From the IMG/VR virus record IMGVR_UViG_3300013306_000779, positions 1 through 41,567 of that record: a DNA stretch of 41,567 nt; one strand, 5' to 3'. This stretch comes from a virus. The notes under the pieces are model-generated. The model worked only from the letters and a program-made list of their open reading frames with translations. It made no database searches and was not told the DNA's origin. A program made the position numbers and the translations under genes. Below, piece after piece: positions 1 to 41,567 of the stretch; within the stretch, counting starts at the first letter, position 1, and every line of letters starts with the position of its first letter.

Positions 1-141
1 TTACTGACTGGCGCGCGCGGCGCGCACCGCGCGGACGAACGCCGTGCTGCTCTGGTTGTAGACGTAGGCGCCGCCGTAGCTGAAGTTGACGCTCCACGCG
101 TAGCCAGCCGGCGACGAGGCGACGGGAGTGCTCGACCAATA
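1..141 (-). repeat. DGR-type variable repeat VR1
   Basis: The 141 nt at the 3' end of the first DUF1566 gene align without gaps to 4643-4783. 122 positions are identical and 19 differ, in 13 codons. Every difference falls on codon position 1 or 2. Twelve of the 13 codons end in C in both copies, and the other is ACT versus TCT. The distal 48 nt, next to and including the stop codon, are identical and very GC-rich, as expected for an initiation-of-mutagenic-homing segment. In known DGRs template AAC codons become NNC by adenine-specific mutagenesis. In VR1 many variable codons are AAC, TAC or AGC. Confidence 0.85.
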
Positions 142-474
142 CCACGACGATTCGGCCTTGAAGAACGCGGTTTCGATCGCGGGGCTGAACCGCTCGTAGT
201 CGACCAGGCTGAGCAGCTCCTTGATCGTCGGAAGGCGCCAATCGGAGTGCTTGCCGATGCGCACCGACGCGGCTGCAACTTTTGCTTCTGACCACTTGTA
301 AGGCGTGCCAGCGCCGACCGTATCGGCCATCCAGATCAGGCCGGTTTCGCGATCGAGGACCTGCGACCAGGATTTGGCTGTCGGAGCGAGCTCCTTGCCC
401 GTGCTGCTTAACTTGATGAAGCGAACGGACGCCGATTTTGACTTCGCGGCTTTTTTCTTCGGTGAGGATTTCAT
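1..474 (-). CDS. DUF1566 (Lcl C-terminal) protein, probable DGR variable protein 1
   Basis: A 157-residue protein with a Lys/Ser-rich N-terminal stretch (about residues 1-20) followed by one DUF1566 domain. Family hallmarks seen are GLIW, DWRLPTIKEL, YWSS and the C-terminal FVRAVR. DUF1566 proteins adopt a C-type-lectin-like fold and are known targets of diversity-generating retroelements. The last 47 codons, including the stop, match the end of the gene at 4643-5056 except at 13 codons that differ only at bases one and two. The upstream halves of the two proteins are clearly diverged, so the match is local. I chose ATG 474, which overlaps the ParB-like gene stop as ATGA; a longer open frame upstream runs through that gene and is spurious. 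It is the last gene of the leftward operon and its stop is the first base of the window. The protein has no signal peptide. Its ligand or virion location is unknown. Confidence 0.9.
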   Translation of the reverse strand: MKSSPKKKAAKSKSASVRFIKLSSTGKELAPTAKSWSQVLDRETGLIWMADTVGAGTPYKWSEAKVAAASVRIGKHSDWRLPTIKELLSLVDYERFSPAIETAFFKAESSWYWSSTPVASSPAGYAWSVNFSYGGAYVYNQSSTAFVRAVRAARASQ

Positions 475-2429
475 GAGCGATCCTTGGTTTTTGCGACGGT
501 GGATTCGGCAGCGCCGAACCGCAGCGGTTTCGGCAGCCAGGTCTTGAGCAGCGGCTGCGCCAGATCGGCGAGCTCGGATTTCTTGAGCTTCTCGGCCTTG
601 CCGATGACGGCCTTGTCGACTTTGGCCTCCTTGAGCGCGGCCAGGATGGTGGCGGCGTTGACGCGGCCGAGGTAGTTGTCGCGCTTGGCCGTCCATCTCG
701 GCCGCATGTTCAGCTTGAGCGCTGCGGCGAGCGGCAATGCGCGATGATCTCTCTCGTCGCCAGCGATAACATCGATGGATTCGGCCACGCAATAGACGAG
801 CAGGCGCTGTACGGTCTTGCCCGCATCCTTGATCAACCAAGCGAGCAGCTCATCCGACTTCTTCGGCAACATGGCCTGCAGCGCGACGCGTTCGGCGCCG
901 AGCTTGGCGATGTCAGCATTGCCGTCGACGGCCATGCTGAGGCGTTCGGCGCGCAGCGCCTGGTTGGGCGCCTGAGTGTGCTCATGCTCGATCTTTACCG
1001 GATGACTATGCGCCGACGTCGTCGGGTAGAACTGTTTCAAGGCAAGCCGATGTGTCAAGGCGATTACGGCGCTGCCTGGCTGGGCGATCATCTCGGCGGC
1101 GATCGCGAATGTGGCGGCCGCAGTGAGCTCGCGCAGGAGCGCCTCACTATGGCCTGGCTGCTGCGCGACCGTTGCGCCGGCGCCCGCTTTGCCTTTCTTC
1201 GCGTCCTTCTCCTGGCGCAGCTTGCCCTTGACCAGGCCGCGATAGATGACCAGGTTGCCGCTGTTACGATCGAGGCCAATCATCGCGCCGCCCTTGGCGA
1301 GGATCTTCGGATCCCACTTGGCGTGCGCGTCTTCGATCAGGCGCAGCTCGGCCTCGATCGCGCGGCAGCGATCGCGTAATTCGCCGGCCTCATCCTGCCG
1401 CTCGGTATCCCAGATCTTGCGCGACATCTTTCCGGCTTCGTCGCGCTCGAGCTTCAGCGCAGCGACCTGTTTTTTCTCGGCGTCGTCGGGCTTCGTGAAC
1501 CCGATCGGCTCGGCGCGCGAATATTCGTTTAGATCCTCATATTGGGAGATCGTCTCGCGCACGATGACGAACGACCAGCCTTCCTTGCGCACGCGTTCCT
1601 CGACCTCCGCGAGCTTCTTCGTGGCGAGCTCCTGCAGGAGGCGTTTGTCGGTGATGTAGCCGGCATCCTTGTCGCTGAAAAGATCGCGGTGCACGTGGCC
1701 GCCGGCGCGCTCGTATTCGCGCAGACCGACGAAGCGGGCGACCGGATCCTTGGCGATATCGATTTCGCCCTTCGTGAGGGCCTCGCGCAGCTTGTCCGGC
1801 GCGCGGCTCCATTCGTCTTTTGACTTGCCCCAGGCCTTCTCCTGCGCGGCATGATCGTCGACGATCGCGAGCGCCATCATCTGCGCGAGCGTGATCTTAT
1901 CGTTGCGGAATTGCTCGAACAGGCTTGGCGCGACGTTGGCCAGCTTGAGGCGGCGCTGCACGACTTGCGGCGTGACGCCGAAGCGCGCGGACACGTCGTC
2001 GACGGACTTGCCCTGCGCGATCATGTCGCGGAAGGCGACGAACTCGTCGGCCGGGTGCATGGCCTGGCGCACGGTATTCTCGGCCAAGCTGGCGGTGAGG
2101 GCTTGCGATTCATCGATCAGGCGGCAGGGGATGCCGTCGCGCAGCTCGGCCGGCAAACGGTTTTCTTTCGCGAGCAGGCGCAGCGCGCGCGTGCGGCGGC
2201 AGCCGGCGACGACAGTGTAATGCTCGAACTCGCTGGCGCCGGCGAGCGGCGAGGTCGTGTCGCCGACGACGGTGAGGTTCTGCAGCAGGCCTTCGGCAGC
2301 GATGGAGGCGGCGAGCTCGGTGATGCTGATGCCGTTCGTCTTCCGCACGCCATGCGTGGCTTCGCTGAGGCGCTCGATCGGCACGGTGATCAGGCGCGGT
2401 TCGATGGCGGGTGTGGCGAGCTTGTTCAT
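471..2429 (-). CDS. ParB/RepB/Spo0J-family protein, large phage type
   Basis: A 652-residue protein. The N-terminal quarter has the ParB/sulfiredoxin-like domain: an AGCRRTRAL box (the family GxRR motif) and then an EN..R..MHPADE segment. A helix-turn-helix follows (SVDDVSARFGV..QVVQRRLKLA). ParB proteins bind centromere-like sites, and many are CTPases that slide on DNA; large phage and plasmid homologues often have unknown roles. The last 400 residues are helical, charged and unassigned. ATG 2429 is preceded by AAAGG at good spacing; the TTG at 2447 is less likely. There is no ParA gene in the window, so a complete partition system is not shown. It lies between a zinc protein and the terminal DUF1566 gene, overlapping the latter by 4 bp. 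A parS-like palindrome occurs at 16610, but this helix-turn-helix is not obviously of the chromosomal parS-reading type. Alternatives are a transcription or silencing factor. Confidence 0.85.
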   Translation of the reverse strand: MNKLATPAIEPRLITVPIERLSEATHGVRKTNGISITELAASIAAEGLLQNLTVVGDTTSPLAGASEFEHYTVVAGCRRTRALRLLAKENRLPAELRDGIPCRLIDESQALTASLAENTVRQAMHPADEFVAFRDMIAQGKSVDDVSARFGVTPQVVQRRLKLANVAPSLFEQFRNDKITLAQMMALAIVDDHAAQEKAWGKSKDEWSRAPDKLREALTKGEIDIAKDPVARFVGLREYERAGGHVHRDLFSDKDAGYITDKRLLQELATKKLAEVEERVRKEGWSFVIVRETISQYEDLNEYSRAEPIGFTKPDDAEKKQVAALKLERDEAGKMSRKIWDTERQDEAGELRDRCRAIEAELRLIEDAHAKWDPKILAKGGAMIGLDRNSGNLVIYRGLVKGKLRQEKDAKKGKAGAGATVAQQPGHSEALLRELTAAATFAIAAEMIAQPGSAVIALTHRLALKQFYPTTSAHSHPVKIEHEHTQAPNQALRAERLSMAVDGNADIAKLGAERVALQAMLPKKSDELLAWLIKDAGKTVQRLLVYCVAESIDVIAGDERDHRALPLAAALKLNMRPRWTAKRDNYLGRVNAATILAALKEAKVDKAVIGKAEKLKKSELADLAQPLLKTWLPKPLRFGAAESTVAKTKDRS

Positions 2430-2456
2430 CGGTATACCTTTGCGCAATTTGCGCGG

Positions 2457-4616: not shown

Positions 4617-4642
4617 CGCCGATCCTCTTGCCAAAAGTCCAA

Positions 4643-4783
4643 TTACTGACTGGCGCGCGCGGCGCGCACCGCGCGGACGAACGCCGTGCTGTCCTGGCCG
4701 CTGACGCCGGCGACGCCGCCGTAGAAGCTGACGCCCCACGCGCAGTCAGCCGGCGACGAGGCGTCGGGAGAGCTCGACCAATA
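4643..4783 (-). repeat. DGR-type variable repeat VR2
   Basis: Ungapped 141-nt partner of positions 1-141. The 19 differences are confined to bases 1 and 2 of 13 codons lying within a 27-codon stretch, and the third bases of all 47 codons are identical. Ordinary divergence would put most changes at third positions, so this is the reverse of drift under purifying selection. Similarity stops abruptly upstream of 4783. Confidence 0.85.
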
Positions 4784-5056
4784 GAAATCGGATTTCAGCC
4801 TGAGCTCAGGATCGGCGGCAGGATTGAAGCGCGAGCGATCGCGAAGCGTTTCAAGCTCTTCGATCGTCGGCAAGCGCCAGTCGTCGAATCCCGCGCTGCG
4901 AAACGATGCCGCTGCCTCCTTGGCATCCTTCCAGTTCATTCGCTTTTCGGAGACGTCAATCGCGGCCCACATCAGGCCGTTTTTCTCGTCGAGGAATGCG
5001 GCCAAAGTTGGCGCGCCGATCGGCCGACCGTCGCTTCCAATTTTTATCATCTGCAC
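4643..5056 (-). CDS. DUF1566 (Lcl C-terminal) protein, probable DGR variable protein 2
   Basis: A 137-residue protein consisting almost wholly of one DUF1566 domain: GLMW, WKDAKEAAASF, DWRLPTIEEL, YWSSS and the terminal FVRAVR. Its N-terminal 85 residues are only moderately similar to the protein encoded at 1-474, yet the last 47 codons are nearly the same apart from 13 scattered codons. That is the pattern expected when one DGR template serves two targets. GTG 5056 sits six bases after AAGGAG and is preferred; ATG 5050 is possible. There is no signal peptide. It lies in the middle of the leftward operon. The lectin-like fold and ligand-display role come from the family; the actual ligand is unknown. 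Confidence 0.88.
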   Translation of the reverse strand: MQMIKIGSDGRPIGAPTLAAFLDEKNGLMWAAIDVSEKRMNWKDAKEAAASFRSAGFDDWRLPTIEELETLRDRSRFNPAADPELRLKSDFYWSSSPDASSPADCAWGVSFYGGVAGVSGQDSTAFVRAVRAARASQ

Positions 5057-5600: not shown

Positions 5601-5627
5601 TTTGCGCTCCGCTGCTATGCGGTGCGC

Positions 5628-5671
5628 ATATTAGGTCCGGCCTAATTTATTTGTCAATAGGCACAGCCTAA
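5628..5671 (-). promoter_or_regulatory. Leftward promoter with two repressor operators
   Basis: Read leftward, -35 TTGACA (5652-5657) and -10 TAATAT (5628-5633) are 18 bp apart. One inverted repeat, TTAGGCCGGACCTAA, fills 5631-5645 between the boxes. A second, TTAGG-N5-CCTAT, fills 5657-5671 and touches the -35. Repeat centres are 26 bp apart. The module closely matches the rightward one at 6827-6870, so the same regulator should bind both. A bound dimer at either site would block RNA polymerase. Confidence 0.75.
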
Positions 5672-5680
5672 TATTTGTTC

Positions 5681-6121
5681 TTATTCCTGAATGGTGGTCA
5701 GCACGTCGTTTTCAAAGTAGAGGTAATGGCGATCACTATACGAGCTGCCAAAGACCCATTGCTCGCGCACGCCGCGCGAAGTCTCAGTTCGATTTTTGCT
5801 AGGCCAGCTGCCAAGCCATGGGTTGTATTTTATTTTCCCCTCATCGATTTGCCTTAACCTCGTCGGGAAATCGACTTTCTTATTTTCTTCGATCGATTGA
5901 AGCAATACCGCCTCAACTTCGGACTTCTTCATTCCTACGCGTGGCCGCCAATCGCTAATATCAGCAGCGAGTGCCGGCGCCGGCGGGGGCGCTGCGGCAC
6001 CCGTGCATGCGGCCTCGGTCCAAGCGCCATTGGCGTCCTTACATTTGTAAGATGCGGCGAGCGCACTTAATCCGGCGATAGAGGCTAATAACGCGATCGC
6101 GGCGATAGATATCGTTCGCAT
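5681..6121 (-). CDS. Secreted protein with DUF4124-like start and BamE/SmpA-like C-terminus (candidate moron)
   Basis: A 146-residue protein. Residues 1-23 are a clear Sec signal peptide (hydrophobic core, then ALAAS). YKCKDANGAWTEAAC follows, as in small periplasmic DUF4124-like proteins, then an Ala/Pro linker. The C-terminal half resembles the BamE/SmpA fold: VGMKKSEVEAVL, then EQWVFG and YLYFENDVL. AAGGA lies seven bases before ATG 6121. The gene shares orientation with the repressor and is separate from the leftward early operon by position. A possible -10 (TAAAAT, 6160-6165) lies upstream. It could therefore be expressed in the lysogen and alter the host envelope; that is inference from position and secretion. 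Confidence 0.75.
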   Translation of the reverse strand: MRTISIAAIALLASIAGLSALAASYKCKDANGAWTEAACTGAAAPPPAPALAADISDWRPRVGMKKSEVEAVLLQSIEENKKVDFPTRLRQIDEGKIKYNPWLGSWPSKNRTETSRGVREQWVFGSSYSDRHYLYFENDVLTTIQE

Positions 6122-6260
6122 GGCCTAATCCTTCGACCTTGGTCGTCTCCAAAAATGCGATTTTAGCGTGTTCAACTGCGCTGCCACACAACCGACAGGG
6201 GGTTGGTAATGGTAGATTTCGACAAGTCTGATCCTGTGTTCCTTGCATGGATGGGGAAGC

Positions 6261-6294
6261 AAAAAAGGGCGGCTGTGCGAACTAGCTCGCCTTT
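6261..6294 (-). terminator. Possible terminator after the repressor gene
   Basis: On the minus strand AAAGGCG at the end of the repressor gene can pair with CGCCCTTT (one bulge) across a 16-nt loop, followed by six T's (6261-6266). The stem is short and partly inside the coding sequence, so this is a weak call. If real, it separates the repressor from the secreted gene. Confidence 0.3.
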
Positions 6295-6803
6295 GCCCCT
6301 TTACGACGATCTTGTTCGACGATACCGAGCAATTCTGCAAGCAGGCCCGTCTTCAGTGACGCGCCTTCAGCTGCCGCTCTGTTTCGAAGATGCTCGGCAA
6401 AGGACGTCGCTGCGGCTGGTATATTCGCGGCCAGCGCAGTGATCAAGCTAGCCGCGACCATGCCCAATTCATCGGCGGTCGGCTCAGCTTGATCGCGTAC
6501 TCGACCTGGCGCCTGCGGAGAAATTTCGTAGGCTCCAATTCCGGGTGCGAATGATGGCCCTTTGCCTTTTCCCCAATAAAGCCACTCGAAGCTCAAATCC
6601 CAGATTGTGCACATGCGTTGGGCTTTGCGCGTCGATGGAAGGTGATTGCCGGACAACCAAGCCGAGACGGTTGGCGGCTTAACGCCGAAAAGCTTCGCGA
6701 GCCTCTCTTGGCCACCGCGATCAGCGAAACCCTTTGCAGTCAGCACCTTGCGTAGACGTGCAGCAAATTCGCCAGCGTCCGGTAGCTCGTCTTTGGTAGG
6801 CAT
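6282..6803 (-). CDS. CI-type phage repressor, HTH XRE, no S24 peptidase domain
   Basis: A 173-residue protein with an XRE/lambda-repressor-like helix-turn-helix at about residues 14-68 (QERLAKLFGVKPPTVSAWLSG) and a WLYWGKG segment common after this domain in phage repressors. The C-terminal 95 residues are helical and alanine-rich. They show no Ala-Gly cleavage site or Ser-Lys dyad of the LexA/CI peptidase, so RecA-triggered self-cleavage is not expected. It faces the Cro-like gene across a 75-bp region with two operators, the classical immunity layout. AGGA precedes ATG 6803. It should repress both operator-bearing promoters and may control its own. How induction occurs is unclear: an antirepressor or another route would be needed. 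Confidence 0.85.
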   Translation of the reverse strand: MPTKDELPDAGEFAARLRKVLTAKGFADRGGQERLAKLFGVKPPTVSAWLSGNHLPSTRKAQRMCTIWDLSFEWLYWGKGKGPSFAPGIGAYEISPQAPGRVRDQAEPTADELGMVAASLITALAANIPAAATSFAEHLRNRAAAEGASLKTGLLAELLGIVEQDRRKGAKAS

Positions 6804-6826
6804 CGCCTAATCCTATCGAAATAAAA

Positions 6827-6870
6827 TTAGGGCCGTCCTATTGACACAAAACTTAGGACGGACCTAACAT
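6827..6870 (+). promoter_or_regulatory. Rightward promoter with two repressor operators
   Basis: -35 TTGACA (6841-6846), an 18-bp spacer, and a -10-like TAACAT (6865-6870). Operators are TTAGG-N5-CCTAT at 6827-6841 and TTAGGACGGACCTAA at 6853-6867, with starts 26 bp apart. The inner operator differs from the inner operator of the leftward promoter by one base, and CCTATTGACA is shared exactly. The predicted start is about 6877, only one or two bases before the Cro-like ATG. Confidence 0.75.
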
Positions 6871-6878
6871 GCGCGGCC

Positions 6879-7094
6879 ATGAGCTACGAAGCCCTCGACC
6901 GAGCTATCGCGAAATTCCCGAGCCAGAAGGCTTTCGCCGATGCGCTTGAGGTGAAATCGCCGTCTGTCTCTGAATGGCGGGCGCGCGAACGCGTGCCTGC
7001 TGAGCGTTGCCGAGACATTGAGAAGCTCACTGGCGTCACTGCCGCCGAGCTTCGTCCTGATCTATTTGGCGACGACGAGGCGAGAGCGGCTTGA
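6879..7094 (+). CDS. Cro/YdaS-type transcription regulator
   Basis: A 71-residue helix-turn-helix protein: QKAFADALEVKSPSVSEW is the HTH, followed by RVPAERCRDIEKLTG and ELRPDLF, the signature of the YdaS/Cro_C1 family. Such proteins oppose the CI repressor at shared operators and open the lytic route. It is the first gene of the rightward transcript. There is no Shine-Dalgarno before ATG 6879, and the predicted transcript begins almost at the ATG, suggesting a leaderless message. No N or Q antiterminator was recognised downstream. Confidence 0.85.
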   Translation: MSYEALDRAIAKFPSQKAFADALEVKSPSVSEWRARERVPAERCRDIEKLTGVTAAELRPDLFGDDEARAA

Positions 7095-7219
7095 AAATGA
7101 AGCGCAAAGAATTGGCCGTTTCTAGCGGCCCTGAAATTATTCGAGGTAGGTTTTCTCCGAGATGGACGGCTGAAATAGCCAAGCATCTGCAGCGAGGCCA
7201 CCACCGCAAGGTCGCCGCG

Positions 7220-7423
7220 CTATTTTCCGAACGACCGCCGCAGCTTCTCCATCGCTTCCTCGACCGGCTTGATCGCCTTCTCGCGCTGCGTGGCGAGGAA
7301 CTTGTCGAGGTTGAATCTGTGGCCGCACTTCGCGCAAATACGGTGCGCCTGCGTGTTACGTGCCGGCTTGAGAAATTCGTCGCTGCCGCACTTATTGCAG
7401 CGAATCGTGATCTTCGTTCCCAT
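7220..7423 (-). CDS. Small zinc-ribbon protein
   Basis: A 67-residue protein with CNKC and CAKC pairs 20 residues apart, a classical zinc ribbon (TIRCNKCGS...RICAKCGHRF), followed by a basic helical tail. GGAG lies about eight bases before ATG 7423. It points against the flanking early genes on the plus strand, and open frames on the plus strand here have no motif. It could bind nucleic acid or be a protein adaptor. No terminator with a T-run was found after it. Confidence 0.6.
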   Translation of the reverse strand: MGTKITIRCNKCGSDEFLKPARNTQAHRICAKCGHRFNLDKFLATQREKAIKPVEEAMEKLRRSFGK

Positions 7424-7599
7424 CGCGGATCTCCGGTATGTGGATGACGTTGCACTCGGAAGTATACCGGCCGATCCGCGGCCAATTCACGACGGTAGAT
7501 CGCAGGGCCTTGCCGTACTTTGGCCGCCGAGCTTGGGCCGTCTTTTTCTCCCCGTTGCCTGCTCATGCGGGCATTCCATCACTTTGCCTGGAGTAGGGC

Positions 7600-8223
7600 A
7601 TGTCAATCATTGACCAAGGCGGCATAGGCGCGCTGCCAACGCGATCGAAACTGATCGCACGGCGAACAGAGCAAGCGATCGCGGTCAGCGGATTGAACGT
7701 TCTCAAGTTCGCTTCGCGCGTAGCCGAGAAGTTCATCGCCAAGGTGCCGCAGTTCCAACGTTGCGTACAGTTCTACGAGCCAGGTGCGACGCTGGAAAGC
7801 GCGCTGCATGCGGAGCTGTCTAACGGAAAGCTGGTCGACCGATTCCTGAAAGGTATCGTGAAGTTTCCCGCGGATCTCGAGGAATGCTGGGTGGACTCAT
7901 TGCCCGAGCCGCATCGCAGTGATCTCGTGCGCGAGCTCGCGTGGCGATACGGGTTGCTCGGCGCCAAGCTGCCAGACGCAGCGCATCATGAACATATTGC
8001 GCGCTTGGCTGATGTCCTGGCCGACGCGGGCCGCACGGCCGTCGCACTCGCACCGCTATTCGAGAAGGGCCAGCTGAACGTCGAAGGCGAGAGCGGCCCA
8101 CGCATTGCGCAGTCGATGCTGTCGATCGACAAGTCGATCGGCGATCTGATTGGACTGAGAGAACAGATTGCGGCGCAGATGCGAGGCACCAAGACCAGCA
8201 CGCCATCGAAGCGTAGCCGGTAA
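7600..8223 (+). CDS. Early phage protein, unknown function
   Basis: A 207-residue, mostly helical protein with no recognised motif. GGAG lies before ATG 7600, and its stop overlaps the next start (TAATG), so the two are coupled. The 176 bp before it show no clear promoter. It lies between the immunity region and the primase-helicase, where many temperate phages keep replication-accessory or host-takeover genes. The sequence does not say which. Confidence 0.7.
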   Translation: MSIIDQGGIGALPTRSKLIARRTEQAIAVSGLNVLKFASRVAEKFIAKVPQFQRCVQFYEPGATLESALHAELSNGKLVDRFLKGIVKFPADLEECWVDSLPEPHRSDLVRELAWRYGLLGAKLPDAAHHEHIARLADVLADAGRTAVALAPLFEKGQLNVEGESGPRIAQSMLSIDKSIGDLIGLREQIAAQMRGTKTSTPSKRSR

Positions 8224-8426
8224 TGCCGCCATGGGGTGAGGCAGCCCGCACGCTTGATGCGCTGCGTTGGTTGGCAGATGACTCGCGCAAGCCAACCAGG
8301 CAGCAGCTCGCCGAAGCGGAAGCGATCCTTGCCGAGCCGCCGGCGAACGATCCTCAAGCATCGCTCGCGTTCCCGAATCCCTTCCCCCCTTTGATTGAAA
8401 AAGAAACTCGCGCGCCTCGGCGTTAG
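8223..8426 (+). CDS. Small early protein, unknown function
   Basis: A 67-residue protein with a helical N-terminal half (ALRWLADDSRKPTRQQLAEAEAIL) and a Pro-rich tail. Start and stop of the two genes share TAATG, the best evidence that it is expressed. It ends 72 bp before the terminator that closes this small operon. Confidence 0.6.
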   Translation: MPPWGEAARTLDALRWLADDSRKPTRQQLAEAEAILAEPPANDPQASLAFPNPFPPLIEKETRAPRR

Positions 8427-8497
8427 CGAGTCATCACGATGCGCACAAGTATACAAATAGAAGCAAGCCGGTCAAAAGGTACTCCCGTGCCGCCTTG

Positions 8498-8523
8498 AAC
8501 GCGGGTAAAAAGACCGCGTTTTT
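8498..8523 (+). terminator. Intrinsic terminator
   Basis: AACGCGG (8498-8504) pairs perfectly with CCGCGTT (8514-8520) around a 9-nt loop, and the stem ends in a T5 run (8519-8523). It closes the early pair of genes and separates them from the primase-helicase, which must have its own promoter or depend on antitermination. The interval 8524-8607 has only a weak promoter candidate (TTGAAA at 8540). Confidence 0.65.
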
Positions 8524-8607
8524 GCCGTAGTTAGTGGGGTTGAAAGTTACTGAAATCGGGGAGTTTAGTCGGTCGTTTTCGCCAGCGACGTCGGACATTA
8601 GAACAAG

Positions 8608-11037
8608 ATGATCGCAACGAACTACGACGACGTCCTCGATCAGCTCCGCGCCGCCGGCCTCATCGTCGACCGCATCGAGCTAGATCGCTGGATCCGCGTC
8701 CGCGTCGAAGGCCGCGGCCGTGAGAAATGTGGTTGGTATCGCCTGGTCGAATGGTACTCGCCGTCCGGCGAGACGCTCATCGTCGGCAGCTTTGGCTTTT
8801 GGGAAGGCACCGGCAACAACGCCAGGCGCGTCGAGCTGCCCAAGCGCGACGGCGGCAAGCGCCAGGAGCTGACCGACGACCAGCGCGACGCATTCAAGCG
8901 CCGCCTGGCCGAGGATCGCAAGAAAGCCGACCAGCTCCGCGCCGCCGACGCACGCCGGGCCGCCGATCGCGCCTCGAAGGCCTGGGCGCAATGCGCGCCG
9001 ACCGGCGAATCCGATTACCTCGCACGCAAGGCCGTCCAGGGCTACGGCGTGCGCTACTCGCCGTCGGGTGCGCTCGTCATTCCGATGATCGACACCGCCG
9101 GCAAGCTGCACGGCCTGCAGGTGATCCGATCACGCAAGGTCGCCAAGGCCGATGGCGCGCCAGAGAAACAGTACTGGCCCGCCGGCGTCGTCACGCGCGG
9201 GCATTTTCACCTGATTGGCTCGCCGCAATGGATCCTGCTCATCGCCGAGGGCTACGCAACGGCGGCCACGCTTCACCAGGCCACCGGCTACCCGGTCGCC
9301 GTCGCCTTCGATGCGAACAACCTCGGCCCCGTCGCCACCGCGCTGCGCAAGCGCTACCGCCGCGTGCAGATCCTCATCTGCGCCGACGACGACATCCTGC
9401 GCAAGTGCAAGCATTGCAAGGCGCGCTTCGTCCTGGCGCCCGGCGTGCCGCTGCTCTGCATCGCGTGCGGCAAGGAACACGGCCAGGACAATCCCGGCGT
9501 CAGCGCCGCCAGCACCGCGGCCGTCGAGGTCGGCGGATCCTTCATCGTCCCGCAGTTCCCGGATCCGGCCGCGCGCGCCGCGCTGTTCATCGACAAGGGC
9601 GTCAAGCTCACCGACTTCAACGACCTCTACGCGCTTCCCGAAGGCGGCGGCACGTTCGTCGTGCGCAGCCAGGTCGAGGCCCGCATGCTGGAGCTTGGTA
9701 TGCGCGCTCGATACGAGCTCGCGGCGATCAGCAACGAGAACGGGGCCGGGGGGCGGCAGAGGTTACGGCCAATCGGCACCGTCGACGAGCTCATGCACCG
9801 TTTTGCACTTGTATACGGCCAGGGCGGCGCCGTCTTCGATCGCAACGAGCACCAGCTCGTCTCGCTCAAGGACATGTCCGACGCCTGCGCCTACAAGTAC
9901 CTGCACCGCACCTGGATGGAGTCGGCCGACCGCGCGATCGTGCGCATGGATGAAGTCGGCTTCGATCCCGGCGGCGAAGACGCGAAGATCACCTGCAACC
10001 TATGGGCCGGCTGGCCGACAACGCCGTCGACCGAAGGCAAGTGCGACAAGCTGCTCGATCTGCTGCGCCACATGTGCCGCGGCGAGGATCGCGCAGAGCC
10101 GCTCTATCGCTGGGTGCTGTCCTGGCTCGCCTATCCGCTGCAGCATCCCGGCGCGAAGATGAAGACCACGCTCGTGTTGCACGGTCCGCAGGGCACCGGC
10201 AAGAATCTGTTCTTCGAAGCGATCATGGCCATCTACGGCCCCTACGGCCGCATCATCGACCAGGGCGCGATCGAGGACAAATTCAACGAGTGGGCCAGCC
10301 GCAAGCTATTCCTCATTGCAGACGAAGTCGTCGCCCGATCCGACCTCTACCACATCAAGAACAAGCTCAAGGGCTTCATCACCGGCGAGTGGATCCGGAT
10401 CAACCCGAAGAACATCGCCGCCTACGACGAGCGCAACCACGTCAACATGGTGTTCCTAAGCAACGAGGCCGTGCCTGTCGTGCTCGAGGAAGACGACCGC
10501 CGGCACACCGTCATCTGGACGCCACCGAAGATGTCGCAGAAAGCCTACGACGACGTCCTCGCCGAGCTGCGCGCCGGCGGCGTCGAAGCCTTGCACGATT
10601 TCCTCCTGCACTACGATTGCGGCGAATTCAACCCCGGCACTGCGCCGATCGGCACCGACGCCAAGACTGAACTGATCAACCAATCGCTCGACAGCACAAC
10701 GCGCTTCGTCTACGCCCTGCAGACCGGCGACATCGGCGCCGTCAAGTATCAGCCCGCGCTCGCGACCGAGGTCTACGCGCTCTACAAGTTCTGGTGCGCT
10801 CAGGTCGGCGAGCGCCATGCGCCGCTGCGACGCCTCGAGAACGCGCTCGCGCGCAAGCACGAAGTATACAAATCGCGCAAGCGCTACCTCGACAAGGGCA
10901 TCGCCAAAAACCCGCAGGCCTTTTTCATGTTCACTACCGAGCAGCCGGAAGGCTTCGTCGAGCAGGCCTGGCTCGGCAACTGCGTCGAAGAGTTTCGCGA
11001 CGCGGTCAAGGAATTCCGAGGTACGGCCAGTGACTAG
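8608..11037 (+). CDS. Phage primase-helicase (TOPRIM plus DUF5906-type helicase)
   Basis: An 809-residue replication protein. The TOPRIM domain has glutamate 214 in LIAEGYATA, AFDANN and the triple aspartate at 260-262. It carries an inserted CxxC-x13-CxxC zinc ribbon (Cys 267, 270, 284, 287) just after the aspartates. The C-terminal half is a helicase: Walker A GPQGTGKN (526-533), Walker B LFLIADE (Asp 572, Glu 573), a sensor-like VFLSNE, and EEDDRRH as a likely arginine finger. Homologues prime and unwind DNA for theta-type replication of P4-like and related phages. ATG 8608 has only a weak ribosome site. The stop overlaps the next gene's GTG. No separate replication initiator gene is seen, so the origin may be nearby, perhaps in the repeats at 11319-11598. 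Confidence 0.9.
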   Translation: MIATNYDDVLDQLRAAGLIVDRIELDRWIRVRVEGRGREKCGWYRLVEWYSPSGETLIVGSFGFWEGTGNNARRVELPKRDGGKRQELTDDQRDAFKRRLAEDRKKADQLRAADARRAADRASKAWAQCAPTGESDYLARKAVQGYGVRYSPSGALVIPMIDTAGKLHGLQVIRSRKVAKADGAPEKQYWPAGVVTRGHFHLIGSPQWILLIAEGYATAATLHQATGYPVAVAFDANNLGPVATALRKRYRRVQILICADDDILRKCKHCKARFVLAPGVPLLCIACGKEHGQDNPGVSAASTAAVEVGGSFIVPQFPDPAARAALFIDKGVKLTDFNDLYALPEGGGTFVVRSQVEARMLELGMRARYELAAISNENGAGGRQRLRPIGTVDELMHRFALVYGQGGAVFDRNEHQLVSLKDMSDACAYKYLHRTWMESADRAIVRMDEVGFDPGGEDAKITCNLWAGWPTTPSTEGKCDKLLDLLRHMCRGEDRAEPLYRWVLSWLAYPLQHPGAKMKTTLVLHGPQGTGKNLFFEAIMAIYGPYGRIIDQGAIEDKFNEWASRKLFLIADEVVARSDLYHIKNKLKGFITGEWIRINPKNIAAYDERNHVNMVFLSNEAVPVVLEEDDRRHTVIWTPPKMSQKAYDDVLAELRAGGVEALHDFLLHYDCGEFNPGTAPIGTDAKTELINQSLDSTTRFVYALQTGDIGAVKYQPALATEVYALYKFWCAQVGERHAPLRRLENALARKHEVYKSRKRYLDKGIAKNPQAFFMFTTEQPEGFVEQAWLGNCVEEFRDAVKEFRGTASD

Positions 11038-11669: not shown

Positions 11670-12296
11670 ATGACTTCCCTGCCAGAAACCGCCACGCTGC
11701 GCCAGTTCGCCGACCTGGTGCCCTGCAAGCCGTCCTGGGTCACCCAGCTCAAGGCCGACGATCGCCTCGTTCTCACCGAAGACGGCAAGCGGGTCAGGGT
11801 GCGCGAATCCCTGCAGCGCATCGAGGACACGCGCGACCTCACGCGCGAAGGCGTCACCCGCCGCCACGCCGCCGGCCGCGCCGCCAAGGCCGCGCACGCC
11901 GCGCCGGCGGCCGCCGCTGCGCCGCCGGCAGGCGAGGGCGACGCATCCCCGCCGCCGGCGGCAGAGCCTGACAGCGACGCGCCGGCGCCGGCGAAGGAGT
12001 CTTCCACGTTCCAGCACTGGCGCGAACGCGGCGAGCGCGCGAAGGCCCTCGCCGCCGAGCGCGAGAACGCGATCGCCGAGGGCAAGCTCATGGACGCCGG
12101 CGCCGTCGTCGACGCCGTCAAGTCGCACTACGCCACATTGCGCGCCGGCCTCGAGGGCCTGCCGGATTTCCTCGCCCCGCAGCTCGTCGGCGTGCGCGAA
12201 GAGCCCAAGGTCCGCGCGCTCATCGCCGAAGCCATCGAAAGCAAACTCACCGAACTGTCGCGCGCGTTCGGCGCCGCCGCAAAGGAGCCAGCATGA
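11670..12296 (+). CDS. Terminase small subunit, Nu1-like
   Basis: A 208-residue protein. The N-terminus has a Nu1-type winged HTH (TLRQFADLVPCKPSWVTQL, then VRVRESLQRIEDTRD). An Ala/Pro-rich linker runs from about 75 to 112. A helical C-terminal half (HWRERGERAKALAAERENAI and later) probably contacts the large subunit. Small terminases bind the packaging site and position the motor. ATG 11670 begins the conserved HTH. A 117-residue upstream extension in the same frame is repeat-derived and rejected. It is followed by a gene overlapping by 4 bp and, 2.3 kb on, the GpA-type large subunit. The opposed 9-bp repeats just upstream are candidate binding sites. Confidence 0.75.
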   Translation: MTSLPETATLRQFADLVPCKPSWVTQLKADDRLVLTEDGKRVRVRESLQRIEDTRDLTREGVTRRHAAGRAAKAAHAAPAAAAAPPAGEGDASPPPAAEPDSDAPAPAKESSTFQHWRERGERAKALAAERENAIAEGKLMDAGAVVDAVKSHYATLRAGLEGLPDFLAPQLVGVREEPKVRALIAEAIESKLTELSRAFGAAAKEPA

Positions 12297-12787
12297 ACCA
12301 TATCTCGCGAACGGTAAGCGACCTCGAGGACTATGAAGAGGCCGAACGCATTGCCGCGAAAATCCATGCGCTCGCTGCCGCGAACGTGCGCGCTTTTTTC
12401 CTGCGAAAAATGAGCAGGCTGCTCGGTTTTGCAGAAGCGATGCCGAAGCCAATGAGCCGCCGCAGGCGAGCTGCTCTGGCATTCCTCTATCGGTATCTGC
12501 AGACGTGTATTCGCGGCGCCGAACACATCTATATCGATCAAAGCGTGCAGCGCGCGCGACACGCTTATATCGCCGCGCGCCTTCGCGACACGTTTGAAGC
12601 GCGGCCAATACGCGTTGCAAACATTGTCGCCATCCGCTTCGCGCGCCGCCAGCGTGACGAACTCGATGCATGCCGCATCGGCTGCCAGAACGAATCCCGC
12701 CAGGCCTGCATCAAGCGCCTGGTTAGCGCCGAGCATTCGCACCTGCAGATCCTGCGCACGCTCATGTCGCCGGAGCTGCGGCCATGA
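12293..12787 (+). CDS. Unknown protein with a portal-like N-terminal segment
   Basis: A 164-residue basic protein joined to both neighbours by ATGA overlaps. Residues 9-23 (SDLEDYEEAERIAAKI region) closely match a helix of the portal protein encoded near 18568 (DLKDYEESERIAAKI). About 37 of 45 nt match there, with mostly third-base differences. The remainder is not portal-like and contains an RRRR run and several cysteines and histidines (YLQTCIRGAEH, CRIGCQNE). It may be a chimera that captured a fragment of a related portal gene, or a chance helix match. Local base composition is less GC-rich than its neighbours. No function is assigned. Confidence 0.55.
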   Translation: MNHISRTVSDLEDYEEAERIAAKIHALAAANVRAFFLRKMSRLLGFAEAMPKPMSRRRRAALAFLYRYLQTCIRGAEHIYIDQSVQRARHAYIAARLRDTFEARPIRVANIVAIRFARRQRDELDACRIGCQNESRQACIKRLVSAEHSHLQILRTLMSPELRP

Positions 12788-13029
12788 GCGAGCTCAATCC
12801 GAATCATCCGGTGCTCACGACTATGCACGACCACTGGCACAAGATCGCCGCGATCCTCATGAGCAAGTTCGGCCTCGAGCACGTGGTCATAACCTCGGTT
12901 GATATCGGACGGATGCCGGAAGGCATGTTCATCACAGTGCAGGAACTCGACGACGGCCTGCATCTGAAATTCGTTGACGAGAAAACAGCGATCGCGCTCG
13001 AGCGCCGCGAGGGAGGGCTGCCAACGTGA
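12784..13029 (+). CDS. Small phage protein, unknown function
   Basis: An 81-residue acidic protein overlapping its neighbours by 4 bp at each end (ATGA, GTGA). Pattern: HDHWHKIAAILMSKFGLEHVVIT, a short alternating beta region, then an acidic stretch. Similar small proteins accompany terminase modules. No activity was recognised. Confidence 0.65.
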   Translation: MSELNPNHPVLTTMHDHWHKIAAILMSKFGLEHVVITSVDIGRMPEGMFITVQELDDGLHLKFVDEKTAIALERREGGLPT

Positions 13030-13547
13030 AAAATATACTTCGGTGGATCAGCGATCGCTGGGTCAAGAAAGAACCCTGCGTTTGCCTGACCGATGGCCGT
13101 CCGGTTCCGGAAGACGGATCGCATCGCATCGCAAGGTTATGCCGAAATGGCCAGCATGCGGGCTACGTGGTGCTGTGCGATGAAGAGCGCGCAAAGGGGT
13201 TCGTAAGGCCCGTGCGTATGTCCTACATTCACGTCGGCGTGCGGCCTGAGTTTCCGACGCGTGATCTGACTGCAGAGGAAATCGAGCGCTGCTCCGGTGA
13301 GGACTATATGGCGTTCGAACCGTATCCGCCTGAGCGTGCGCCGGCGATGGGCCGCTATTGGACCGCCGCTCAGCTCAGATCCGGCTGCGGTTCGCTCACG
13401 ACCATGTGCCGCGCGCTCTCCGAAACATATGCTCGTGATCCTGGCTTCTATGGCGCGACGTTTTGCTGCCGCTGCGGCGCGCACTTCCCGGTCGGCGCGG
13501 ATGGCGAGTTCATTTGGGAAGAAGACGGCACGAGAGTCGGGACGTGA
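13026..13547 (+). CDS. Unknown phage protein with C-terminal zinc-ribbon-like motif
   Basis: A 173-residue protein starting at GTG 13026, overlapping the previous stop. It has CVC and C near the N-terminus and ends with FCCRCGAHFPVGADGEFIW, a treble-clef-like terminal module common in small phage proteins. The middle (EERAKGFVRPVRMSYIHVG) looks like a short beta domain. No known family was named. It is coupled to the DUF1643 gene by a GTGA overlap. Confidence 0.65.
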   Translation: MKNILRWISDRWVKKEPCVCLTDGRPVPEDGSHRIARLCRNGQHAGYVVLCDEERAKGFVRPVRMSYIHVGVRPEFPTRDLTAEEIERCSGEDYMAFEPYPPERAPAMGRYWTAAQLRSGCGSLTTMCRALSETYARDPGFYGATFCCRCGAHFPVGADGEFIWEEDGTRVGT

Positions 13548-14017
13548 ACGCCGGCGCCACAATCTCCCGCTGCGGAAAATTCCGCTACTCGCTCACGCGC
13601 GAATGGCTCGGCGGTGACGGCGTCGTCGCGTTCATCATGCTCAACCCGAGCACGGCCGACGCGATGCAGGACGATCCGACCATCCGCCGCTGCATCGGCT
13701 TCGCGAAGGCCTGGCGCTATGCCGGCCTGGAGGTCGTTAACCTCTACGCCTTCCGCGCGACTAGGCCGGCCGACATGTTCGCCGCCGAGGATCCGGTCGG
13801 GCCCGAGAATGATGCGCATATCGTCGAGGCCTGCGCGCGCGCCAGCATGGTGATCGTGGCCTGGGGTGCTATCGCTGCGCTGCGCCGCGACCGAGTCGCT
13901 GCAGCGCGCGCCATGATACGGCGCGGCATCTATGCTCTGGGGCTGACCAGCGCCGGCGAGCCGCGCCATCCGCTCTACGTGCGCGGCGACGCGCAGCCGA
14001 TCCGGTGGCCCGTATGA
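13544..14017 (+). CDS. DUF1643 family protein
   Basis: A 157-residue protein with DUF1643 hallmarks: FIMLNPSTADAMQDDPTIRR, NLYAFRATRP and VIVAWG. The biochemical role of the family is unknown; it is frequent in phages and mobile DNA. The start is GTG 13544, four bases into the previous stop. Upstream frame continuation is a shadow of the zinc-ribbon gene. Its stop overlaps the next ATG (ATGA). Confidence 0.8.
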   Translation: MNAGATISRCGKFRYSLTREWLGGDGVVAFIMLNPSTADAMQDDPTIRRCIGFAKAWRYAGLEVVNLYAFRATRPADMFAAEDPVGPENDAHIVEACARASMVIVAWGAIAALRRDRVAAARAMIRRGIYALGLTSAGEPRHPLYVRGDAQPIRWPV

Positions 14018-37782: not shown

Positions 37783-38755
37783 TATTGGAGGCTTTCCGGC
37801 GCGCGGCGTGCCGGTGATCGTCAATCCGGCAACGGGCTTCCCTTTCGGCCTGTTCCATCGCGTCGACGAGGTCGTTGCAGGAAACCTCGACCAGTCATTC
37901 ACTTTGGGCGCGGTTCCTTATCAGAACGGCCTCACGATCACGCGCATTCGTTCCGGTGTCGCGTATCGAATGAGGCTCACCACCGACTATACGATCTCCG
38001 GCGTCAATGTGACGCTCACCTCTGGCGCGACAGCGCTGGACGTTTATGTGTTCGACCTATGGACGGCTACGCCGAACCCGGCCGCCGCATCAAACCCGAA
38101 CCCCGTCGATCCGCTATTCGCGAACGTCACCTCGTTGCTTCACCTCGATGGCGCGAACAATGCCACGACCACGACGGACGTTATCGTCGCGAGCACTTGG
38201 ACCTTCACCGCTGCGGCAAAACTTGCAACTGCCTGGTCGAAGTTCGGGGCGAGCTCGCTTTTCCTGGACACCGGCGGTTACATTGGATCGAATAGTCACG
38301 CAAATTTCGGCTTTGGCTCCGGCGACTATTGCGTCGAGATGTTCACGAATTTGGGTTCGCAGGGCGGCGGCGGGATATCGCGCGTGCTTTACGAAGGGCG
38401 TGGCGGCGGGGCGACAGGCATTGTGCTTTATAGCACCGTTGGTGGCGATTCCAAGCTGCAAGCATGGAGCAATTCCAGCCTGATCATCGCGTCGAGCGCG
38501 CAAACGTATTCGGCTGGCGATCACATTGCTCTTTACCGCGCCAGCGGAATCATCTACATCGCGAAAAATGGCGTTGTCGTTGCGACCGCCGCTGACTCGC
38601 GGACGTATTCATCAACCGCTACGGCTGTTTTCGGCGGCAACCCAACCCCCCAATACGAAACCGGATACCTGGACGAGATCCGAATAACGAAGGGGAATGC
38701 GCGTTATTCGACCAGCGGATTTACGCCGCCGTCAGCATCGTTCCCGAATCACTAA
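37769..38755 (+). CDS. LamG/concanavalin-like tail adhesin
   Basis: A 328-residue protein, GTG 37769 with a strong GGAGG nine bases upstream. The N-terminal part resembles phage tip proteins (FTLGAVPYQNGLTITR). The C-terminal 200 residues are a LamG/ConA-like domain: LLHLDGANN, WSKFGASSLFLDTGGYIG, DYCVEMFTN and GYLDEIRITKGNARY. Such domains bind glycans. The DGR-type proteins elsewhere are unrelated to it in sequence. Confidence 0.75.
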   Translation: MLPLDIGGFPARGVPVIVNPATGFPFGLFHRVDEVVAGNLDQSFTLGAVPYQNGLTITRIRSGVAYRMRLTTDYTISGVNVTLTSGATALDVYVFDLWTATPNPAAASNPNPVDPLFANVTSLLHLDGANNATTTTDVIVASTWTFTAAAKLATAWSKFGASSLFLDTGGYIGSNSHANFGFGSGDYCVEMFTNLGSQGGGGISRVLYEGRGGGATGIVLYSTVGGDSKLQAWSNSSLIIASSAQTYSAGDHIALYRASGIIYIAKNGVVVATAADSRTYSSTATAVFGGNPTPQYETGYLDEIRITKGNARYSTSGFTPPSASFPNH

Positions 38756-38756
38756 A

Positions 38757-40412
38757 ATGGGCCAGCTCTACGACAGCGCTGCGATCTACGACTGGGACGG
38801 CACCTACGACGGTGGCGTCGACATGCCGATCGGTCCGCCAGGCTTTGGCACCGTCACGCGCGGGCCGTGGAATGGTGGAACGTTGACGCAATCGCTGCAG
38901 CGCGCACCATTCGGCGAGGCCGACCCGATCGAGGCGGTCATCAGGTTTACCGGCACCGCCGCGGCGCCGATGTTCTACGACGCGCGCGTGCCCTGGGGCG
39001 AGGCGATCGCGCACGAGTCCAACGTGCGCATCGTCTATGGTGATGGCAGCCCGCGCGAGCGCGTAGTCCGCGGTAAGTGGCGCAAGGCAATCCCGAAGGA
39101 AACGGTCACGCGGATCCGCTGGCTCAAGGCGCAGCGGCTTGTGCAATCCGTATTCGGAATCGAGTGGGGCGTCGCCGACCCGCGCAACGACATCACCGCT
39201 ATCGTGTGGGGCGTTGGCGAGCCGCATGAACAGATTGAGCATGCGCCGTGGGGCAACGCAACGCCGCGCGAGATCATCGTCCGCATCCGCTGGAAGGCTG
39301 GCGCGCAGCACGCCGGCGGTTACACGACTCCCTGGAACAATGTTCCACCACTACCGCCGGGCTCGACCATCGTCATCCCGCCGCGCGAGGTTTATTTCAT
39401 GATTCCGAGTCTCACCATCATCCGCACGTCCGACAGCGCAGATCTCAACGCGATCGATTGCCAGCTGCGCTACGACATCTCGAGCTACGCGTGGACTTTC
39501 CAGGCGAACATTCCGCGCGCGTCACTCGCGCTGGTCGATCCGAAGACGCATGACGAGCCAGTGCTGGTGCAGATCAGCGTCAATGGCTATCTGTTCAATG
39601 TGATCGTCGAGGCCTATACCGACAGCCGCAAGTTCGGCGTCTCGAGTGTGCAGATTACCGGCAGGTCGCGCTCGGCACTTCTCGGGCCGCCCTATGCGCC
39701 GCTCACGACGTTCACCGAGACGAGCAGCAAGGATGCCAGCCAGCTGGCCACCGACGCGCTCGCCGACACCGGCTGGACACTGATCTGGAACGCACCGGAC
39801 TGGCTGGTGCCCGGTAGCACTTTCACCTACGCCGACAAGACGCCGATCGAGGCGGTCGCCCAGGTAGTCAATTCCATCGGCGCCGTGCTGTATTGCGATC
39901 CGGAAGAACTGACGCTCACGGTGAATCCAATGTATCCGACAAGCCCCTGGGCATGGGGTGACGCGACACCGTTCGCCAGCATCCCGAACGCCTTCTGGAC
40001 GAACATCGACGGCCAATGGGAAGGGCAAGGAGCACCGGACTACAACGGGGTATATGTGAGTGGTCAGAACGGCGGCGTCGTCGGCCTGGTGAAGCTGACG
40101 GGCACGGACGGTGCGAAGCAGCTGCCTGCGGTGAATGACCCGCTGATCACGGATATCGACGCCGGACGCGAGCGCGGCCGCATCGAGATAGCCAAGGGCA
40201 CGAAGCAGAAAACAGAGACGGTCAGTATGCCGGTCCTGCCGGCGCCAGCGAGCGATGTGAACCCTGGGATCATTCCGCCAGGCACGTTGCTCGAGATCGA
40301 CGATATAGACGGTTCAACTTGGCGCGGTCAGGCGATGAGCGTCGAGATCAACGCGCAACGCTCTAGCGGGTTCTCTGTTCGGCAGCTCTTGCCGATTGAG
40401 CGGCACGCATGA
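38757..40412 (+). CDS. Tail hub-like protein with N-terminal repeats
   Basis: A 551-residue protein. Residues 30-190 carry about five degenerate repeats built on a W/F-G-x-A-x-P-x..x-R-I-x-W theme (APFGEADP, VPWGEAIA, GKWRKAIP, IEWGVADP, APWGNATP). The remaining 350 residues resemble baseplate hub or gp27/gp44-like proteins (FQANIPRASLALVDP, SVQITGRSRSALLGPPYAP, ADKTPIEAVAQVVNSIGA). ATG 38757 lacks a clear ribosome site and stands one base after the previous stop. It is followed by a short baseplate-type gene with an ATGA overlap. Confidence 0.7.
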   Translation: MGQLYDSAAIYDWDGTYDGGVDMPIGPPGFGTVTRGPWNGGTLTQSLQRAPFGEADPIEAVIRFTGTAAAPMFYDARVPWGEAIAHESNVRIVYGDGSPRERVVRGKWRKAIPKETVTRIRWLKAQRLVQSVFGIEWGVADPRNDITAIVWGVGEPHEQIEHAPWGNATPREIIVRIRWKAGAQHAGGYTTPWNNVPPLPPGSTIVIPPREVYFMIPSLTIIRTSDSADLNAIDCQLRYDISSYAWTFQANIPRASLALVDPKTHDEPVLVQISVNGYLFNVIVEAYTDSRKFGVSSVQITGRSRSALLGPPYAPLTTFTETSSKDASQLATDALADTGWTLIWNAPDWLVPGSTFTYADKTPIEAVAQVVNSIGAVLYCDPEELTLTVNPMYPTSPWAWGDATPFASIPNAFWTNIDGQWEGQGAPDYNGVYVSGQNGGVVGLVKLTGTDGAKQLPAVNDPLITDIDAGRERGRIEIAKGTKQKTETVSMPVLPAPASDVNPGIIPPGTLLEIDDIDGSTWRGQAMSVEINAQRSSGFSVRQLLPIERHA

Positions 40413-40769: not shown

Positions 40770-41567
40770 ATGGAAAGCGTCCCGATCATCCCCTGGCTCG
40801 GCGGTAAGCGCCGCCTTGCCGATCGCCTGCTCAAGTTATTCCCGCCGCATGATTGCTATGTCGAAGCGTTCGCCGGCGGCGCGGCTCTGTTTTTCCTGCG
40901 GCCGTTGCCTGCCAAAGCCGAGATCCTCAACGATGCGAATGGCGACCTGGTCAACCTCTATCGCTGCGTGCAGCATCACCTCGAGGAGTTCGTGCGGCAG
41001 TTCAAATGGGCGCTCAGCTCGAGGCAGATGTTCAAATGGCTGCAGGACACGCGGCCGGAAACGTTGACCGATATCCAGCGAGCGGCGCGCCTGTTCTATC
41101 TGCAGCATCACGCTTTTGGCGGCAAGGTCACCGGCCAGGCCTTCGGCACGGCGACGACGTCGCCGACCGTCAACTTGCTGCGCATCGAGGAGACGCTGAG
41201 CGCGGCGCATTTGCGCCTCGCCGGCGTGACGATCGAGCACGCGCATTGGCTTGAATGCGTGCAGCGCTACGATCGCGCGCACACATTGCATTACCTCGAT
41301 CCGCCTTATTGGGAGACGGAAGGGTATGGCCTGCCGTGGGAATTTGCCGAATACGAGCGCATGGCCGAGTTTGCGCGCAAGGCGAAGGGCAGGGTGATGA
41401 TCTCGATCAATGACCATGCAGCGATTCGGACGGTGTTCGATGGGCTGCACCTAGAGCGAACGGAACTGCGCTATTCGGTCGGCAAGGTCGAGACTGATGC
41501 CCGTGTGGCGGCGGGCGAATTGATCCTTACGAACTGGAAACCGGAGCTCATGGGCGGGCTGTTCTGA
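40770..41567 (+). CDS. dam: DNA adenine methyltransferase, Dam (D12 class)
   Basis: A 265-residue protein. N-terminal WLGGKRRL, SAM-binding YVEAFAGGAALFF (30-42), and the catalytic motif DPPY (177-180) in HYLDPPYWETEG place it in the Dam/D12 class of adenine methylases that methylate GATC or related sites. GAGG lies nine bases before the ATG. Its stop is the last base of the window. It would mask phage DNA from restriction or alter regulation. Confidence 0.9.
   Translation: MESVPIIPWLGGKRRLADRLLKLFPPHDCYVEAFAGGAALFFLRPLPAKAEILNDANGDLVNLYRCVQHHLEEFVRQFKWALSSRQMFKWLQDTRPETLTDIQRAARLFYLQHHAFGGKVTGQAFGTATTSPTVNLLRIEETLSAAHLRLAGVTIEHAHWLECVQRYDRAHTLHYLDPPYWETEGYGLPWEFAEYERMAEFARKAKGRVMISINDHAAIRTVFDGLHLERTELRYSVGKVETDARVAAGELILTNWKPELMGGLF

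Follow-up and report, generated by a model that had tools for sequence, protein, structure and literature searches.

A probably truncated temperate-phage record with two Lcl_C variable genes and a diversity-generating retroelement predicted to continue beyond its edge

The diversity-generating retroelement (DGR) of BPP-1 (mtd-avd-TR-brt) carries a variable repeat (VR) at the 3' end of the gene for a C-type-lectin-like target, shows adenine-specific variation and is arranged in the order target, Avd, template repeat (TR) and reverse transcriptase (RT). Its target site is given as a GC-rich hairpin with a GRNA loop in PMC3240598. Two surveys (PMC6642488 and PMC3521204) report DUF1566 as the commonest Pfam domain among DGR targets and describe several VRs per template; a TR overlapping the RT ORF is their 'group 3'. 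TR/RT-ORF overlap, several VRs and inactivated RTs are already described in PMC3521204. A-biased mismatches across DGR clades are documented by Roux et al. (PMC8144416). The C-terminal domain of Legionella pneumophila Lcl (PDB 8q4e) belongs to the same Pfam family and has the same fold as the two target proteins described here.

The present locus resembles that of BPP-1 in its 3' VRs in C-type-lectin-like targets and in the adenine specificity of their variation, and the target-Avd-TR-RT order recurs in its relatives. It differs from BPP-1 in having at least two targets, which are Lcl_C proteins rather than Mtd, in a template that in the relatives lies inside the RT ORF, in showing a sequence motif after the VR instead of a GC-rich hairpin, which was not consistent among the short pieces folded, and in an engine that would lie outside the record. 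Compared with published DUF1566 DGRs, the targets belong to a leftward gene cluster that also includes a repressor and a ParB-like gene; the relatives have a 20-nt end motif in common.

The stretch analysed, hereafter the window, is the whole IMG/VR record IMGVR_UViG_3300013306_000779, 41,567 nt in length and classed as linear. Target gene 1 (positions 1–474, minus strand) encodes a 157-residue Lcl_C/DUF1566 protein (PF07603, E-value 4.6e-32), and its TAA stop is the complement of record bases 1–3, which bears out the preliminary description, where the stop of this edge gene had been placed at base 1. Target gene 2 (4643–5056, minus strand; 137 residues; PF07603, E-value 7.8e-25) is located 4.6 kb upstream of the VR of gene 1 in transcription order. 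The two genes end in 141-nt repeats, VR1 (1–141, minus strand) and VR2 (4643–4783, minus strand), that are 87% identical and both have a VR-type end (...GTCAGTAA in VR1). The repeats differ at 19 positions in 13 codons, with eight differences in the first codon position, 11 in the second and none in the third. The repeat pair behind the preliminary description is confirmed. No third copy is present in the window, as had been reported, the next ungapped match retaining 58 of the 118 invariant bases against 118 for the two copies.

An AlphaFold2 model of the VR1 protein (pLDDT 85) predicts a C-type-lectin-like fold. It superimposes on 8q4e with Z 11.8 and r.m.s.d. 2.7 over 113 residues (26% identity) and on a BPP-1 Mtd variant with Z 7.9 and r.m.s.d. 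3.4 over 122 residues. A profile search of PDB sequences returned nothing at an E-value of 0.001, and the assignment of the window proteins to Lcl is based on Pfam and fold. Unlike Legionella Lcl, the window proteins are phage-borne, consist of little more than the domain (137–157 residues) and carry DGR-type VRs.

The window's own template is missing, and the templates of three relatives (L001, L002 and L041) were used to examine the adenine specificity of the variation over a 118-nt core of the repeat. With the template of L001 or of L002, each of the 17 core differences between VR1 and VR2 faces a template A (hypergeometric P = 1.5e-13); with that of L041 the count is 15 of 17 (P = 2.2e-9). 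Where the templates of L001 and L002 have a base other than A, the two window copies agree at all 90 positions. The outermost difference between the copies, ACT/TCT, is at the 5' border of the repeat, where the L002 template has T. The preliminary description counted 13 variable codons; that number of codons does differ between the copies, but the L001 and L002 templates carry 28 A in the matching 118 nt, and at 22 of these one or both window copies have another base. Two genes that lie on one strand and belong to a single Pfam family might instead be paralogues that have stayed similar through gene conversion or because they were duplicated recently, with no DGR involved. Such processes would not confine differences to template-A sites, and the parts of the target proteins 5' of the repeat are identical at only 39 of 90 aligned residues, against a nearly unchanged 3' 141 nt; this origin is considered exceedingly improbable.

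The VRs of the relatives read GTCAG before the stop codon and their templates GTGAG, so that the putative IMH at the VR end is distinct from the IMH* at the TR end. Because both window copies carry the VR form, both are recipients. RT, Avd and repeats occur together in L001, L002, L021 and L041, with nearly all mismatches opposite A in one copy. One VR of L003, one of L142 and one of L156 were out of register in the end-anchored comparison (75–81 apparent differences) and were left out; repeat pairs from the scan of L006, L010, L018 and L019 lacked a DGR-like A bias. In L143, the template ending at 8807 has 9 A, compared with 23–31 elsewhere, and one VR looks as if copied from this spent template. 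This locus is possibly a burnt-out DGR.

A search of the whole 41.6 kb with RVT_1 found no RT, in agreement with the earlier statement that none lies inside the window. The bAvd profile also gave no match, but neither did its control, and matches in the relatives are below the curated cut-off; a custom Avd profile likewise found nothing in the window. Repressor and CII-like genes are present, and neither a tyrosine nor a serine integrase (PF00589, PF00239) was matched within the 41.6 kb. A ParB-like protein of 658 residues (471–2447, minus strand; PF02195, 5.8e-6; phrog_7783, 1.9e-77) adjoins VR1. A 57-nt inverted repeat (77%; 5624–5680 and 6818–6874) with CCTAAT-like boxes flanks a repressor-like gene, and these boxes are possibly operators. 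Towards the right end lie a tail protein (38697–40412, plus strand; phrog_6079) and a D12-class adenine methyltransferase (40770–41567, plus strand; PF02086), whose stop codon closes the record. Since each end of the record is the stop of a frame 80 or more residues long, a property of 0.32% of the tested interior positions, the record was likely trimmed at gene borders. The idea that the record is a closed circle whose right end contains the RT was rejected, as no RT is found anywhere in it; the first and last 20 bases, moreover, are not common to both ends.

The right-end methylase led to L041 (76% identity over 265 residues; 76% at the nucleotide level over 940 nt), a single 16.4-kb contig with a relative of the tail protein, the methylase, a recombinase, RT/TR, Avd, VR genes and a ParB-like gene. 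Its methylase (5897–6694, plus strand) adjoins the recombinase-RT/TR-Avd-VR block, which comprises a serine recombinase (6729–9050, minus strand), an RT whose ORF contains the template (8744–10018, minus strand), an Avd gene (10015–10452, minus strand; phrog_3206, 'Avd protein of DGR') and, between the Avd gene and the ParB-like gene (11706–13604, minus strand; 53% to that of the window), two Lcl_C VR genes. L002, with a VR gene 88% identical to window VR1 over 235 nt, shows the order VR gene, VR, Avd, RT/TR and serine recombinase, followed by a convergent tail relative (45% to that of the window). Because L041 and L002 join the counterparts of the two ends of the window through this block, the DGR engine would lie between those ends on a circular map. 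The RT ORFs of four relatives (L001:8633–9880, L002:1150–2415, L021:8772–10022 and L041:8744–10018) harbour the template repeat in their 5' ends, and the ATG of each overlaps the Avd stop. Those of L001, L002 and L021 contain YVDD and IGNLSSQ, which we take to be marks of DGR RTs.

The comparison suggests that the window represents, in truncated form, a temperate tailed phage with a DGR that has at least two Lcl_C target genes and an engine beyond base 1, a reading to which we assign a probability of about 0.8. Avd, template and RT would probably be found within about 3 kb beyond base 1. The preliminary description had placed a template repeat and an RT just beyond that base, and this position is the best supported, on the L041 and L002 order; the details of the layout differ. 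Judging from the relatives, base 1 should be followed by Avd, possibly together with another VR gene, and then by the RT with the template repeat in the 5' end of its ORF. Instead of the separate 141-nt template foreseen, a repeat of about 118–126 nt is expected there, with the TR-type end GTGAGT in place of GTCAGT and a stop. A serine recombinase would probably follow the RT, and after it, on a circular map, the methylase end of the record (base 41567).

A different line of evidence comes from the end of VR2, where a 20-nt motif, GTCAGTAATTGGACTTTTGG (4631–4650, minus strand), spans the stop codon and is the only match in the window when up to three mismatches are allowed. The corresponding motif of VR1 is incomplete in the record; its remainder (TYGGMCTTTTKG) is expected directly after the stop and would fall off the record. 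IMG/VR was searched for the VR-end motif GTCAGTARTYGGMCTTTTKG without requiring an RT, giving 35 stretches in 32 records with 45 exact sites, all 45 of which end an Lcl_C gene and span its stop codon; the reversed pattern was found in one stretch. An RVT_1 domain is present in 23 of the 32 records, typically at about 0.8 or 1.3 kb from the VR. In 27 records with at least 3 kb after the last motif-bearing VR, RVT_1 starts within 3 kb of that VR in 19 and at 5.7–6.4 kb in two, and is not seen in six. These six are G044, which has Avd at its left edge, G050 (RT deleted), G048 (RT replaced) and G049, G052 and G053, in which neither Avd nor RT was seen in the record. The spacing of VR2 and VR1 (4642 nt) has parallels: among 13 records that carry two motif-bearing VRs, six space them by 4105–5208 nt. 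A natural control is provided by G040, which resembles the window in lacking an RT and in ending shortly after a VR, 77 nt past the VR-end motif. In G024, with 98.3% identity to it over 1025 nt, Avd and RT follow directly beyond this point.

These records also bear on whether RT and template might be supplied in trans by a host element or a co-resident phage, the genes of the window being remote targets. In favour of this, VRs at 3–5 kb from the core are common in the relatives, but in all 23 RT-bearing motif records the RT is in cis, downstream and on the strand of the VR (once across the record ends), and no case of supply in trans was seen. Such an arrangement is judged very unlikely.

The ParB-like gene served as an anchor for finding relatives and gave 36 loci in 35 records, L041 and L121 being in the same record; no DGR part was detected in 26 of the 35. 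In six (L021, L135, L138, L142, L143 and L147) the order is VR-Avd-RT-ParB, which puts the RT on a flank of ParB that carries no RT in the window; L136, with an RT and no Lcl_C VR, was not counted with these. L041 is the only ParB-anchored record with a window-like order. Because no RT is present between VR and ParB, the window must either follow the order of L041 or have lost its RT. A tblastn search of the phages collection with VR1 gave no match, and a scan of contigs with the ParB-like alignment added three distant relatives, none with an Lcl_C VR, Avd or RT by custom profiles.

Loss of the RT does occur among the relatives. L131 has VRs and a cut Avd and lacks an RT. In L131 (8982–10007) and in L183 (9060–9940; G048), Avd is cut short and RT and template are replaced by related ORFs of about 200 residues that are 64% identical to each other and have no Pfam match. 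By eye, we take these ORFs to be HNH-homing-like; if so, a mobile gene would have displaced the DGR engine in both. G050 (L155 with L186), a circular record with a 123-nt end repeat, keeps its VRs, Avd and template, but comparison with L159 reveals a deletion of about 1.4 kb that takes in most of the RT. The window could likewise be a remnant from which RT and template were recently lost, with both targets frozen and no DGR part hidden by the edge. The absence of an RT from its commonest position, between VR and ParB, the retention of VRs in L131, G048 and G050, and the A-only differences that, according to PMC3521204, inactivated DGRs retain after recent loss are all in keeping with this. Against it, the 41.6 kb hold no remnant of Avd, RT or template, the engine of L041 and L002 falls in the stretch that is missing from the window, and the 90 non-A sites show no difference. 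Third-position changes in the RT-less G048 (4 of 24 differences) and L131 (2 of 18) count in the same direction with little weight, since RT-bearing relatives show them too (L001, 1 of 22; L135, 3 of 21; L138, 2 of 17; L161, 3 of 20, twice). Recent loss is therefore thought unlikely, and an engine just beyond base 1 remains the preferred reading. A lack of third-position differences was rejected as proof of activity, as the RT-deleted G050 also shows none.

In this reading, the template RNA would be copied by an error-prone RT together with Avd, template adenines would become random bases in the cDNA, and the cDNA would take the place of the 3'-terminal ~120 nt in each target gene. The recipient would be marked by its IMH-like end and the adjoining GTCAGTARTYGGMCTTTTKG motif. 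The A-specific variation and the VR-type ends are observed in this phage and the engine in its relatives; for the phage itself we infer the engine, its order and retrohoming. When 27-nt pieces at seven VR ends were folded, a clear hairpin was obtained in three, and the VR2 piece of the window formed none that was stable (−0.2 kcal/mol); a conserved hairpin after the VR was consequently rejected as a uniform feature. The BPP-1 hairpin is not evident in these short pieces, and the 20-nt motif stands in about its place. It is tempting to suggest, tentatively and at somewhat less than even odds, that DGRs of the Lcl_C branch find their targets by a 20-nt address, GTCAGTARTYGGMCTTTTKG, across the stop codon and not by a GC-rich hairpin of the BPP-1 kind. 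If true, any gene given a GTCAGTARTYGGMCTTTTKG end would become a target, and the service of several genes up to about 5 kb apart by one template would be explained. One open-paper library, queried for 'diversity-generating retroelement' with GTCAGT, gave no match, a result that applies to that library only.

Several records end inside or near a VR or TR: L002 at its left end, L155 and L161 at their right ends, and L199/L200, the ends of G046. The end repeats of G046 (127 nt; ends inside the template) and G050 (123 nt) indicate that such phage records are in some cases circular, with the cut falling inside the DGR. VR/TR repeats probably break assemblies at these ends, and DGR engines may be under-counted as a result.

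What the truncated record shows is part of a conventional DGR, whose mechanism and parts are already known. The end motif is the more useful by-product. It offers a means of listing DGR targets in RT-less fragments, and surveys that start from the RT miss both this record and G040. The A-site comparison with the template of a relative works without the phage's own template, and the missing engine of a virus record cut at its edge can be predicted from comparative anatomy. The RT-less relatives indicate that in this phage group the engine is sometimes lost while the targets persist.
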